From an uncultured Pelagibacteraceae bacterium (GTDB lineage Bacteria; Pseudomonadota; Alphaproteobacteria; Pelagibacterales; Pelagibacteraceae), in contig CABYFA010000006.1 in NCBI GenBank assembly GCA_902518155.1, positions 1 to 64,000 of the forward strand: a stretch of 64,000 nt of DNA. The letters run 5' to 3'. The notes beneath the pieces are model-generated. The model worked only from the letters and a program-made list of their open reading frames with translations, ran no database searches and had not been told where the DNA came from. This document shows, piece after piece, positions 43,286-49,597 of this stretch (its first letter is position 1; every line of letters begins with the position of its first letter). Made by a program: the position numbers and the translations under genes.

Positions 43286-44938
43286 ATGATAGTATTAGAA
43301 CTTATTTTATTTTTTTTAAGCATAGTAATTATCTCTGTCGCTATTGCTGGTTTTGGTAGTCTTTTATCAATTAAAAATGTAAATAATTTTTTCTTGGATA
43401 TTTGTTTTGGGTTAATAATAATTTCCATATTAATTACAACATTTCATTTTTTTTATGAAATTAAATATTTTTTAAAGATTTTAATTTTATTAATTGGACT
43501 TACAATTTTTTTCAAAAAAAAAAATTTAGTTGATTATAAATTATTAATTAAAAAAAAGAATTTTTTCTATTTTGTTATTATTGGACTTTTGATACCAATG
43601 TTTGTATCTCAAAAATATCATGAAGATTTTGGTTACTATCATTTGCCTTATGCTTTAGCATTTCTTGAAGAAAAAATAGTTTTTGGTTTTGCGAATATTG
43701 ATAAAACTTTTGTGTATAATTCGATTTGGTTAAATCTTTATTCTATATTTTTTTTAGAGGACAAAAACTATAATTATTTAACGTTTCCAAGTTTTTTATT
43801 ATTCTTAAGTTTTATCATATTTTCAATCGATAAAATTTTAAAACAAGAATATTCTAAAATTAGCAATTATTACTTGACTATCGTTTTATTTTATTTCTTG
43901 CTGAAATTTACAAGAATTTCTGAATTTGGTGTGGATTTTCCAGCTACAATTTTTGCAATTCTAAGTATTTTTTATTTTATAAAATTTTATGAAACAAATG
44001 AAATTATCGAGAGAAAATCTTTCTTTTACTTTAATTTAGCTTTTTCATTATTCTCAATTCTAATCAAATTGAGTCTTTTACCTATAATAATTTTATCAAT
44101 CTATTTATATTTTTCTAATTTTAAAAAGCTAAAATTTTATATATTTAATTTAAGATTTTTGTGTATTTATTTTTTAGGTTTAGTTTTTTTTATTCAACAA
44201 TTTTTCTATACCGGATGTCTTTTTTTTCCAACTAATTTGACTTGTTTTAGTGTCAGTTGGTTTAATCCAGAACATTTAAAATTATCTAAAGAGCTCGAAC
44301 TTATTAATAAGAGCTATTCTATAGCAAGGGAAATCTATTCGCCAGAGGAATACCTTGAAAATTTTACTTGGTTTTTATTTTGGTTAAAAAGAAATTTAAT
44401 TGAAATATTTGAACATTTAATGACAATTATTTTACCATCATTATTATTCTTTACTCTTTTAAAAAAAGAAAAAAAAAAAAATTACAAAATTAAAAAAGAA
44501 AATTTTATCTACCTTTTTTGTTTTATATTTTTATTGTTTTGGTTAAATTTTTCACCAGTGTTTAGATTTTCAATACCTTTTTTTGTAACTATAATATTTT
44601 TGATTTCTTATAAATTTTATATAAAAAAAAAATTTTCAAGAAACATTTTTATATTTTTTGTTTCAATTTTTTTGATATTTAATTTTTCTAAAAATATTAA
44701 AAGAATAAACGATACAGAGAAAGTATTTGTTGGAATTCAAAAAATTGAAAATCAATATTTGTTAAACGAGGTAAATAGTAACGAATATGTTAATATTTAT
44801 TATCCTGACGTAAAAAAAAATAAAAAAAATGGCTGGCAAGGAAGACTGTGTTGGGATACCCCATTTATTTGTTCATACAATAAGCTAGAGGTTGGTAAAA
44901 ATAATGGATATTTAATTATCAATAGATTAAAAAATTGA
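43286..44938 (+). CDS. Polytopic membrane protein, possible GT-C-type/lipid-linked sugar transferase
   Basis: ~10+ hydrophobic segments; 'QKYHEDFGYYHLPYALAFLEEKIVFGFANID'; C-terminal soluble tail 'GWQGRLCWDTPFICSYN'. Precise family not identifiable by eye. Confidence 0.55.
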   Translation: MIVLELILFFLSIVIISVAIAGFGSLLSIKNVNNFFLDICFGLIIISILITTFHFFYEIKYFLKILILLIGLTIFFKKKNLVDYKLLIKKKNFFYFVIIGLLIPMFVSQKYHEDFGYYHLPYALAFLEEKIVFGFANIDKTFVYNSIWLNLYSIFFLEDKNYNYLTFPSFLLFLSFIIFSIDKILKQEYSKISNYYLTIVLFYFLLKFTRISEFGVDFPATIFAILSIFYFIKFYETNEIIERKSFFYFNLAFSLFSILIKLSLLPIIILSIYLYFSNFKKLKFYIFNLRFLCIYFLGLVFFIQQFFYTGCLFFPTNLTCFSVSWFNPEHLKLSKELELINKSYSIAREIYSPEEYLENFTWFLFWLKRNLIEIFEHLMTIILPSLLFFTLLKKEKKKNYKIKKENFIYLFCFIFLLFWLNFSPVFRFSIPFFVTIIFLISYKFYIKKKFSRNIFIFFVSIFLIFNFSKNIKRINDTEKVFVGIQKIENQYLLNEVNSNEYVNIYYPDVKKNKKNGWQGRLCWDTPFICSYNKLEVGKNNGYLIINRLKN

Positions 44939-45663
44939 TAATGATTAATAAAGAAAATTTCAAACTTTCGATAATTATTCCGTGTTATAACGAAAAAAAT
45001 ACCATTGAGATTATCTTAAAAAAAATAATTCAAAACTTAAATAAATATAAATTTTTAAATTATGAGATATTAATAGTTGATGATTGCTCTACTGATGGAA
45101 CAATTCAAATTTTAAAACAATTAGATAATGATAATAAAATATTTATTCATTTTCATAATAAAAATTTAGGCAAAGGTGCAGCTATTCGTACAGCACTTAA
45201 GCATCTAACTGGAGAAGTTGTTATAATTCAAGATGCAGATTTAGAATATGATCCTTCAGATTATTACAAATTACTAGACCCTTTTTTTGAGGCAAATGCT
45301 GATGTTGTATATGGTTCAAGATTTTTGGGTGGAGGTAAATACTCTCGTGTTCATTTTTTTTGGCATTATTTAGCTAATAAAATTTTAACTTTTATTTGTA
45401 ATCTTTTTACTAATTTGAATTTAACTGATATGGAGACTGGATATAAAGTCTTCAAATCTTCAGCTTTAAAAAGTATATCACTTAAGGAAGAAACTTTTTC
45501 ATTTGAACCTGAAGTGACAATTAAATTGTCAAAAAAAAAATTTAAGTTCTTTGAAGTTCCAATTACTTATAATGGTAGATCATATGATGAAGGAAAAAAA
45601 ATTGGATTGAAAGACGCATTTATTGCACTAAAAACGATAATTTTATATTCTTTAATAGGTTAG
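44935..45663 (+). CDS. Family 2 glycosyltransferase (dolichyl-phosphate mannose synthase-like)
   Basis: 'LSIIIPCYNEKNTIEIILKKII', 'ILIVDDCSTDGT', 'GKGAAIRTALKHLTGEVVIIQDADLEYDPSDY', 'DMETGYKVFK'. Confidence 0.93.
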   Translation: MIMINKENFKLSIIIPCYNEKNTIEIILKKIIQNLNKYKFLNYEILIVDDCSTDGTIQILKQLDNDNKIFIHFHNKNLGKGAAIRTALKHLTGEVVIIQDADLEYDPSDYYKLLDPFFEANADVVYGSRFLGGGKYSRVHFFWHYLANKILTFICNLFTNLNLTDMETGYKVFKSSALKSISLKEETFSFEPEVTIKLSKKKFKFFEVPITYNGRSYDEGKKIGLKDAFIALKTIILYSLIG

Positions 45664-45681
45664 ATATCTGTTAATTTATCT

Positions 45682-45709
45682 TTGACTAAAATGTTTCTTT
45701 AGGTATAAA
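45682..45709 (+). promoter_or_regulatory. Candidate sigma70-type promoter driving the isolated 5S rRNA gene
   Basis: TTGACT (45682-45687), 16-nt spacer, TATAAA (45704-45709), followed ~6-7 nt later by the predicted 5' end of 5S. Located in the gap after the stop at 45663. Confidence 0.65.
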
Positions 45710-45713
45710 TAGC

Positions 45714-45833
45714 CCGCCTGGTGATTATAGCGAAGAGGTAATACCCGATCCCATTCCGAACTCGGAAGTCAAGCTTTTCAGCGCCGATGGTACTTTGTCT
45801 TAAGACATGGAAGAGTAGGACTTTGCCAGGCTA
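45714..45833 (+). rRNA. rrf: 5S ribosomal RNA
   Basis: Terminal helix GCCTGG (45716-45721)/CCAGGC (45826-45831); conserved 'CCCGATCCCATTCCGAACTCGGAAGTCAAGC…GCGCCGATGGTACTTTG' characteristic of 5S rRNA. Confidence 0.96.
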
Positions 45834-45845
45834 AACTCTTAAATT

Positions 45846-45971
45846 ATGAAAATAAAAAGTTCATTAAAGTCTATCAAGAAAAGAGATCTTAATTCAAAAC
45901 TCGTACGAAGGAGAGGTAGAGTTTACATTATTAACAAAACCAATCCAAAATTTAAAGCAAGACAAAAATAA
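45846..45971 (+). CDS. rpmJ: 50S ribosomal protein L36 (41 aa; missed by the ORF track)
   Basis: ATG 45846 translates to [41 protein letters not shown], a C-minus (non-zinc) type L36. Confidence 0.95.
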
Positions 45972-45976
45972 TTTTT

Positions 45977-46087
45977 ATGGATAATGAAAACCATAAAAAA
46001 ACCTGGAATAATTTTACCAAATTTGTGTTGTGGGGAACTGTCGCGGTAGTGTTAGTATTGGTGTTAATGGCGTTATTCTTACTGTAA
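45977..46087 (+). CDS. Small single-TM protein, aa3-type cytochrome c oxidase subunit IV-like (36 aa)
   Basis: ATG 45977: MDNENHKKTWNNFTKFVLWGTVAVVLVLVLMALFLL*; soluble 'W..FTKF' head plus one TM helix, upstream of pnt genes as in other alphaproteobacteria. Confidence 0.75.
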   Translation: MDNENHKKTWNNFTKFVLWGTVAVVLVLVLMALFLL

Positions 46088-46096
46088 GGTTTTTTA

Positions 46097-47185
46097 ATGA
46101 AAATTGGATCAGTTTCAGAAAATCAAAAAATAGAAAAAAGAATTTCCATCACTCCTGAAATTGCAAAAAAATATATTTCGATAGGATTTGAAGTTCATTT
46201 GTCAAAAAATTACGGAGTTCACTTAGGAATTTCTGATGAAGAATTTAAAAATTTAGGTGTCAAATTTTCTGATAATGAAAATGAAGTTATAAATAATTCA
46301 AATATAATCGTCCAATTAGGATTATTGTCTGAGGACAAATGCTCGTTAATCAAAGAGGACAAAACTCTTATAGGTGTATTAAACCCTTTTGATAATAAAG
46401 AAAAATTAGACAAACTAAAACAAAATAAAATAAATCTCTTTTCATTAGAATTATTACCAAGGATAACCAGAGCTCAATCAATGGATATTTTATCTTCTCA
46501 AGCTAACTTAGCTGGATACAAAGCGGTAATAGAGTCATTTGCTTGTTTTGAAAAAGCTATACCTATGATGATGACAGCTGCAGGGACTGTTCCTGCTGCA
46601 AAGATATTAGTTGTAGGCGCAGGTGTTGCTGGATTACAAGCAATTGCTACAGCAAAAAGAATGGGCGGTATAGTTTTTGCAACAGATGTCAGGATGGCGT
46701 CAAAGGAACAGGTTGAAAGTTTAGGTGGAAAATTTTTGACAGTTGAGGGTGCCGAAAATTTAGAAACTGAGGGTGGCTATGCGAAAGAGGCCTCTGATGA
46801 CTTTAAAAAAAAACAAGAAGATTTACTTTCTGAAACTTTAAAAAAAATTGATATTGTTATTTGCACCGCATTGATACCTGGAAAAAAAGCACCTGTGATT
46901 ATTAAAGAGGATATGATTAATAATATGCAAACTGGTTCCGTTATCTATGATTTAGCTGCTGTACAGGGTGGCAACACTGCATTTACTAAAGCAGATGAAA
47001 TTACTGAAAAAAATGGGGTTAAAATTATCGGTGAAACTAATATCTTAAATAAACTACCAGTGTCTGCTTCTAGCTTATACGCAAAAAATATGTTTAATTT
47101 CGTTGAAAATTTATTTGATAAAGAAAATAAAAAATTAAATATTAATTTAGAGGATGAAATAATAGAAAAAACACTAATTAAATAA
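46097..47185 (+). CDS. pntAA: NAD(P) transhydrogenase subunit alpha part 1
   Basis: 'KIGSVSENQKIEKRISITPEIAKKY', 'SMDILSSQANLAGYKAVI', 'AAKILVVGAGVAGLQAIATAKRMG'. Confidence 0.95.
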   Translation: MKIGSVSENQKIEKRISITPEIAKKYISIGFEVHLSKNYGVHLGISDEEFKNLGVKFSDNENEVINNSNIIVQLGLLSEDKCSLIKEDKTLIGVLNPFDNKEKLDKLKQNKINLFSLELLPRITRAQSMDILSSQANLAGYKAVIESFACFEKAIPMMMTAAGTVPAAKILVVGAGVAGLQAIATAKRMGGIVFATDVRMASKEQVESLGGKFLTVEGAENLETEGGYAKEASDDFKKKQEDLLSETLKKIDIVICTALIPGKKAPVIIKEDMINNMQTGSVIYDLAAVQGGNTAFTKADEITEKNGVKIIGETNILNKLPVSASSLYAKNMFNFVENLFDKENKKLNINLEDEIIEKTLIK

Positions 47186-47188
47186 AAT

Positions 47189-47500
47189 ATGGAAATTGAT
47201 CCTTTAATATTCAGACTAAGTATATTTATTCTCTCAATATTTGTAGGGTATTATGTTGTTTGGAGCGTTACTCCATCTTTACATACTCCTTTAATGTCTG
47301 TGACTAACGCAATTTCATCTGTAATTATTGTTGGGGCGATAATTGCAGGATTATCTGGCAATTCAGATAGCGTGTTTAATACTTCCAGCATTTTTGGTTT
47401 TTTAGCAATTGCATTGGCGGCAATTAATATTTTTGGTGGTTTTTTAGTAACTCAAAGAATGCTCGCAATGTATAAAAAAAAGAAAAAGGAAAAAAAATGA
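47189..47500 (+). CDS. pntAB: NAD(P) transhydrogenase subunit alpha part 2
   Basis: 103 aa, 'VTPSLHTPLMSVTNAISSVIIVGAI…GGFLVTQRMLAMYKKK'. Confidence 0.95.
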   Translation: MEIDPLIFRLSIFILSIFVGYYVVWSVTPSLHTPLMSVTNAISSVIIVGAIIAGLSGNSDSVFNTSSIFGFLAIALAAINIFGGFLVTQRMLAMYKKKKKEKK

Positions 47501-48894
47501 TATCGGCTAATTTATCAGCAATATTTTACTTAGTTTCTGGAGTGCTTTTTATTTTAGCTTTAAGAGGCTTATCGTCTCCTGAAACATCAAGACAAGGTAA
47601 CTTTTTTGGTATTCTTGGAATGATAATAGCTGTAACTGTAACTTTTTTATCGACTGGTAATTTTTCAAGTGGATTTGTCTATGTTCTAATATTCATTTTA
47701 GTTGGAGGTTCAATTGGTGCTTTTATTGCTTACAGAATACCAATGACTGCAATGCCAGAATTAGTTGCAGGATTTCATAGTTTAGTTGGTCTTGCAGCAG
47801 TTTTTGTTGCAATTTCTGCCTTTTTAAATCCTGAGGCATTTAATCTTGGAAAACCAGGAAGCATAAAGCTTGGTAGTTTAATTGAGATGTCGATTGGAGC
47901 TGCGGTTGGAGCTATCACATTTTCAGGTTCAGTAATTGCATTTTTAAAATTACAAGGAATTATGTCAGGTTCACCGATCACATTTAAAGGTCAACACCCT
48001 TTAAATGCCATAATATTAATTTCAATAATTATTCTAATTTATTTACTGTGTTCAACACAATCATCAAATTTATTTTGGATATTATTAGCAGTCTCATTTT
48101 TAATTGGTTTTCTTTTAATAATCCCAATTGGCGGAGCAGATATGCCGGTTGTGATTTCTATGCTTAACTCGTACTCTGGTTGGGCAGCTGCAGGTATAGG
48201 TTTTACTTTAGAAAATACAGCATTAATAATTACAGGTGCGCTTGTAGGATCATCTGGTGCTATATTATCTTACATAATGTGTAAAGGGATGAATCGTTCA
48301 TTCTTTAATGTAATTTTGGGTGGCTTTGGTGCAACTGATGAAAAGTCAAGTAGTTCATCTAAAGAACAGAGACCAGTTAAAAGTGGGAATGCAGATGATG
48401 CAGCCTTTTTAATGAAAAATGCTTCCTCAGTAATAATTGTTCCTGGTTATGGAATGGCTGTAGCTCAAGCTCAACATGCTTTAAGAGAAATGGTTGATAC
48501 TTTAAAAAAAAATGACATCAAGGTATCTTATGCAATTCATCCTGTTGCAGGTAGAATGCCAGGTCATATGAACGTACTATTAGCAGAGGCAAATGTACCT
48601 TATGATGAGGTTTTTGAATTAGAAGAAATTAATAATGATTTTGCAAATGCAGATGTCGCTTTTGTAATTGGTGCTAATGATGTAACAAATCCTGTTGCGA
48701 AAACTGATCCACAAAGTCCGATATATGGAATGCCAGTGCTAGATGTTGAAAAATGTAAATCTGTTCTATTTGTTAAAAGAAGTCTTTCACCTGGATATGC
48801 GGGTATTGATAATGATCTTTTTTATAAAGAAAATACACTTATGTTATTTGCTGATGCAAAAAAAATGACAGAGGATATTACAAAAAATTTATAG
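47497..48894 (+). CDS. pntB: NAD(P) transhydrogenase subunit beta
   Basis: 'ALRGLSSPETSRQGN', 'IGGADMPVVISMLNSYSGWAAAGIGF', 'IVPGYGMAVAQAQHALREMVD', 'HPVAGRMPGHMNVLLAEANVPYDEVFELEEIN'. Confidence 0.97.
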   Translation: MISANLSAIFYLVSGVLFILALRGLSSPETSRQGNFFGILGMIIAVTVTFLSTGNFSSGFVYVLIFILVGGSIGAFIAYRIPMTAMPELVAGFHSLVGLAAVFVAISAFLNPEAFNLGKPGSIKLGSLIEMSIGAAVGAITFSGSVIAFLKLQGIMSGSPITFKGQHPLNAIILISIIILIYLLCSTQSSNLFWILLAVSFLIGFLLIIPIGGADMPVVISMLNSYSGWAAAGIGFTLENTALIITGALVGSSGAILSYIMCKGMNRSFFNVILGGFGATDEKSSSSSKEQRPVKSGNADDAAFLMKNASSVIIVPGYGMAVAQAQHALREMVDTLKKNDIKVSYAIHPVAGRMPGHMNVLLAEANVPYDEVFELEEINNDFANADVAFVIGANDVTNPVAKTDPQSPIYGMPVLDVEKCKSVLFVKRSLSPGYAGIDNDLFYKENTLMLFADAKKMTEDITKNL

Positions 48895-48898
48895 ATAA

Positions 48899-49597
48899 AT
48901 GAGTATAAAAGTTTTTTGTGATATAGCTGATATAAAGAATATTAAAAAATTTAACAACAATAATTTTGTGAAAGGATTTACAACAAATCCTAGTTTAATG
49001 CGTAAAGCAGGGGCAAAGAATTATAGATCTTATTCAAAACAAATACTTAAAATTTGTAATAAAAAACCAATTTCTTTTGAAGTTTTTGCTGACAATCCTA
49101 AATTAATGATTGATCAAGGAGTCAAGATTAATAGATGGGGTAAAAATGTTTATGTGAAGGTTCCTGTAATTAACTCAAAAAAAAAATTTACAGGTAAAGT
49201 TATAAGTGAATTAAATAGTAGAAATATAAAACTTAATATTACCGCTGTTTATACTGCTAAACAAACAGCTAAAATTTTAAAGGTCATAAATAAAAAAACA
49301 AAAGTAATTATCTCTATTTTTGCTGGTAGGGCAGCGGATACAGGTAAAGACCCTGTGCCCGAATTTATTAAAAGCATAAGAATTGCAAAAAGTTTTAAAA
49401 ATGTTGAAATTTTATGGGCAAGTGTCAGGGAACCATATAACTATACTCAAGCAAAGCAATTAGGTTGTCATATTATAACTATACCACCATCGATTATTGA
49501 AAAAATACAAAAATTTGGAAAATCTTTTGACCAACTTACTCAAGAAACAGTCAGGAATTTTTTAATTGATAGCAGAAAGTCTAAATTTAATCTTTAG
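48899..49597 (+). CDS. Transaldolase family protein (short TalC/FSA-type or transaldolase)
   Basis: 'VFCDIADIKNIKKF…VKGFTTNPSLMRKAG', 'VYVKVPVIN' (Schiff-base Lys), 'LNITAVYTAKQT', 'ISIFAGRAADTG'. Confidence 0.92.
   Translation: MSIKVFCDIADIKNIKKFNNNNFVKGFTTNPSLMRKAGAKNYRSYSKQILKICNKKPISFEVFADNPKLMIDQGVKINRWGKNVYVKVPVINSKKKFTGKVISELNSRNIKLNITAVYTAKQTAKILKVINKKTKVIISIFAGRAADTGKDPVPEFIKSIRIAKSFKNVEILWASVREPYNYTQAKQLGCHIITIPPSIIEKIQKFGKSFDQLTQETVRNFLIDSRKSKFNL

Follow-up and report, generated by a model that had tools for sequence, protein, structure and literature searches.

We propose that, in Pelagibacteraceae, a glycan island cut the 5S rRNA gene off from the 16S and 23S genes, and that the 5S very likely now stands under a sigma-70 promoter of its own, whose transcript would start at the first 5S helix and run on into the rpmJ-pntAB genes. 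According to this proposal, which is built from sequence comparison, RNA polymerase would begin on the base that opens that helix or no more than two bases from it, so that little or no 5′ trimming would be needed. Transcription would then continue through rpmJ to a gene for an oxidase subunit and to pntAB, with an rmlB-like gene preceding rpmJ in some lineages. One cut in the roughly 14 nt that follow the 5S would release both a free 5S and a nearly leaderless rpmJ mRNA.

The window, by which we mean the whole 64,000-nt stretch that was analyzed, comes from a 1.14 Mb assembly in 30 contigs that is 92% complete; judged by pntA, it is most closely related to Pelagibacteraceae genomes, with amino-acid identities of up to 96%. 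We searched the whole window with Rfam and found a single 5S rRNA gene (RF00001, 92 bits, E value 1.6 × 10−18) and no match to the 16S or 23S families, in agreement with the original prediction of a 5S without 16S or 23S beside it. Surface-polysaccharide genes lie directly upstream; the last of these, a glycosyltransferase gene (PF00535), stops 53 nt short of the 5S match, and the other glycan genes were judged from translations of their open reading frames (ORFs). Between the glycosyltransferase and the 5S stand TTGACT and TATAAA, separated by a 16-nt spacer and located exactly where the original prediction had placed them (Table 1). A generic sigma-70 scan did not list the two boxes because it demands T as the final base of the −10 box. 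Taken alone, the window's boxes are a weak match in A+T-rich DNA; it is their conservation that lifts them above chance.

Table 1. Positions of the 5S rRNA gene, its predicted promoter, and neighboring genes in the window
Feature	Position	Strand	Basis
Family 2 glycosyltransferase, last gene of the glycan island	44935-45663	+	PF00535, 128 bits; ORF
−35 box of the predicted 5S promoter, TTGACT	45682-45687	+	Sequence; position conserved in 113 relatives
−10 box, TATAAA; last base (−7) not T	45704-45709	+	Sequence; conserved position
Predicted transcription start, G opening helix I of the 5S	45716	+	Inferred from −10 spacing
5S rRNA gene; helix I pairing also includes G45716	45717-45831	+	RF00001
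rpmJ, ribosomal protein bL36 (type B)	45846-45971	+	PF00444, NF002021; usual neighbor in relatives
36-aa aa3-type cytochrome oxidase subunit IV-like protein	45977-46087	+	PF07835, 46 bits (cut-off 22)
pntA, NAD(P) transhydrogenase alpha part 1	46097-47185	+	ORF; sequence and place after rpmJ
Transhydrogenase alpha part 2, beta, and transaldolase-like genes (inferred names)	47189-49597	+	ORFs; gaps ≤4 nt

We collected 113 non-redundant 5S upstream sites from 11 genera, 87 of them assigned to the window's genus (some loci by pntA identity alone) and 26 from ten others, and trained a two-box model on the 87. All 26 sites from the other genera scored above 4; the figure was 2.6% for shuffles and 2.1% for slid positions, and none of 20 sites from the sister family reached it. 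Low model scores were found for g6 and one g12 site. Per-column information, calculated over 77 sites, peaked at both boxes and at the start region, while most flanking columns held 0.0–0.3 bits. Among the 113 sites, the commonest −35 boxes were TTTACA (71) and TTGACT (15), and the commonest −10 boxes were TATAAA, TATAAC, and TATAAG (81 together). T was found at the last −10 position, which was left unscored, in only one of the 113 sites against a background of 37% T. The spacer ranged from 15 to 18 nt, and the distance to the 5S varied slightly between genera. We rejected a chance match of the boxes, as their near-fixed position is conserved and they are absent in the sister family. The original prediction had proposed, as a check, asking whether relatives with different islands keep the promoter, and across 113 sites and 11 genera they do; this conservation test is the new part of the present work, the split itself being known.

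In 103 of the 113 sites, the −10 hexamer begins 12 or 11 nt upstream of the base that opens helix I. Standard sigma-70 geometry gives the start site from the position of the −10 box, which would place the predicted start at the mature 5S end or no more than one base from it. A literature search found no transcription start-site data for SAR11. Across the family (loci L002-L203), the terminal helix of the 5S takes one of two forms, GCCTGG...CCAGGC or GCCGG...CCGGC, and the place of the −35 and −10 boxes is kept most strictly with the GCCGG form. Reading by eye the 16S promoters of the same genomes, we found mostly TTGAYT-N16-TATAA[G/C] about 230 nt before the 16S. Read in this way, these 16S promoters, most of which a regular expression missed, appear to share the layout of the 5S boxes.

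As a control we used the sister family, which belongs to the same order. There, 23S lies adjacent to 5S in all 20 loci (L144-L163), and the 5S flanks pair with a median of −13.2 kcal/mol (shuffled, −4.6 kcal/mol), as expected of a processing stem. The 5S flanks of the window's family do not pair (−2.0 kcal/mol, against −2.3 kcal/mol when shuffled). Both features of a linked operon, a 23S before the 5S and a processing stem, are thus present in the sister family and missing from the window and its family, where the boxes are found instead. This distribution suggests that the 5S of the window's family lost its linked, processed form and gained a promoter in its place, and the linkage kept in the sister family indicates that the split arose within the order.

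To locate the 23S in relatives, we used a 17-base motif of its sarcin-ricin loop and worked out distances from coordinates. In 13 relatives the 23S lies 21–62 kb upstream of the 5S on the same contig and strand (for example, 62 kb in G003, 56 kb in G022, 46.5 kb in G017, and 21 kb in G140); the motif missed several closed genomes, and masked stretches of N, seen in two fetched loci, are one possible cause. Because the contig begins where the window does, the window's own island is cut off before its far end. That the island separates 23S from 5S, which the original prediction took as established, therefore holds in relatives but is not new: passages on SAR11 have described a surface-glycan island splitting 23S from 5S since 2007 (Wilhelm 2007, PMC2217521), and a split rRNA operon at HVR2 or the O-chain cluster also appears in passages of PMC4053759, PMC3815206, and PMC11898729. 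Relocations are on record as well. In a passage on genomospecies Ib.4, the island has moved by about 330 kb and the 5S lies apart from it (PMC11898729), and a translocated 5S is mentioned for an Arctic isolate (PMC12421898); both fit a free-standing 5S unit. At the island edge, four loci (L007, L009, L012, and L015) carry an inverted gene for a membrane protein of about 550 aa directly before the 5S, a sign of rearrangement there; by eye, the N-termini of these proteins resemble that of the protein encoded at 43286-44938 in the window.

Could the 5S instead be made by read-through, either out of the glycan genes or starting at the distant 16S-23S promoter, with the boxes present by chance? We consider this very improbable. 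The short gap between the glycosyltransferase stop and the 5S contains no terminator pattern, and in 67 of 76 loci the gene before the 5S shares its strand, both of which are compatible with read-through. However, the boxes stay near-fixed while their flanks diverge and are missing where the 5S is linked to 23S, and the distance to the 23S in relatives is long. In addition, an automatic ORF call places an opposite-strand gene directly upstream in 7 of the 76 loci, making read-through from that gene impossible. Island read-through may still add to 5S transcription, and with a 53-nt gap in which no terminator was found, the stronger statement of the original prediction, that the 5S is not transcribed by read-through, is unproven.

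A second alternative is that a complete 16S-23S-5S operon lies elsewhere in the genome and that the window's 5S is an extra one. Some room for this reading is left by the incomplete assembly (92% complete), which yielded no 23S; however, it contains exactly one 5S, as does every single-contig genome of the family. More broadly, a 5S match was found in 108 of 147 family genomes, one in each except G010, which has 8% contamination, and G048, whose second match is weak. We therefore rejected a surplus copy, which is extremely unlikely.

Downstream, rpmJ follows the 5S after 14 nt, and the block from the 5S to the transaldolase-like gene is carried on one strand with gaps of at most 14 nt until it ends at an opposite-strand tRNA-Met. 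We found no terminator pattern between 45400 and 49700, although Rho-dependent termination is invisible in sequence. A same-strand gene follows the 5S within 7–38 nt in 114 of 115 loci; across the 115, the first gene after the 5S encodes bL36 in 83 (14 of these by eye) and an rmlB-like epimerase in 31. In three loci the stop of the epimerase gene overlaps the start of rpmJ by 4 nt, so that the two look like one operon. The epimerase gene lies just after the 5S in L023, L072, L073, and others and ends just before it in L019, L027, L035, and others, indicating that the 5S and its promoter change place relative to this gene. The arrangement suggests that the 5S promoter probably drives the protein operon too. 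The original description of the promoter as dedicated to the 5S is thus probably too narrow: rpmJ lies immediately downstream with no terminator pattern between them, in an apparent operon that extends to pntAB.

This packing also raises the possibility that the boxes are the true promoter of the rpmJ-pntAB operon, with the 5S as a passenger in its 5′ leader. At most loci the 5S is indeed followed by the same tightly packed operon. In the sister family, moreover, the genes for the oxidase subunit IV-like protein and pntA are adjacent with no 5S or rpmJ directly upstream, so the 5S and rpmJ were probably placed before a pre-existing pair. We nevertheless regard a passenger 5S as unlikely. As the sole 5S gene, it must be made at the level of ribosomes; the position of the boxes fits a start on its first base; and where the rmlB-like gene intervenes between the 5S and rpmJ, the boxes stay at the 5S. 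The idea is in any case largely compatible with our favored explanation, a 5S promoter whose transcript would extend into the operon. A more specific version, that the 5S arises with its 5′ end already mature, as the leader of rpmJ-coxIV-pntAB, and that 3′ processing frees the mRNA and couples ribosome supply to energy genes, is one that we put forward tentatively, somewhat short of an even chance.

Previous work bears on this neighborhood. The gene order rpmJ-pntA in HTCC1062 appears in a passage of PMC2704228, which notes the 5S neighborhood and proposes a pntA-linked RNA element instead. That element, RF01810 ("pntA sRNA"), matches the window at 45973-46034, almost wholly within the PF07835 frame. 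Across 87 unique sequences, the third codon positions of this 36-aa frame are the most variable and pN/pS is 0.12; a conserved version of the protein also precedes pntA in the sister family. RF01810 is probably a missed protein gene and not an RNA family.

SAR11 bacteria, which rank with the ocean's most abundant cells, carry one set of rRNA genes. As far as we found, how the 5S keeps pace with the 16S and 23S had been left open, and a conserved promoter of the rRNA type would answer this in outline. If the proposal is true, a separate promoter would account for an island that can be exchanged, grow, or move without harming ribosome supply, and a protein operon headed by a 5S would be an unusual tie between rRNA processing and mRNA production. 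We found no earlier account of a 5S promoter or a 5S-rpmJ operon in the open-access literature.

The closest known system is the SAR11 HVR2 split operon itself, in which a single 5S likewise lies beyond a surface-polysaccharide island in the passages of PMC2217521, PMC4053759, and PMC11898729 that concern it. Those passages describe neither a 5S promoter nor a 5S-rpmJ operon, and the word "promoter" is absent from PMC2217521 and PMC11898729. With respect to promoter class, the sites reported here have two boxes, 15–18 nt spacing, a near-fixed place, and A, C, or G as the last −10 base. A class of alphaproteobacterial sigma-70 promoters that lacks T at −7 has been described; it includes the rRNA promoters of Rhodobacter, which are helped by CarD (PMC8407463). 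Like that class, the SAR11 5S sites combine a −35 box with a −10 box whose last base is A, C, or G, but they differ in a spacer that is mostly 16 nt; SAR11 is absent from the text of PMC8407463. We found the CarD family (PF02559) in 17 of 21 genomes searched, including 11 of the 12 high-quality ones, and did not find it in the 92% complete assembly. Finally, unlinked rRNA genes are known elsewhere (Wolbachia, Buchnera, Thermoplasma, and others), and a passage of PMC7761764 likewise has the parts lying apart and needing their own promoters. The cases cited in that passage are mostly splits of 16S from 23S, whereas in SAR11 the 5S alone is split off, a hypervariable island does the splitting, and the 5S appears to head a protein operon.
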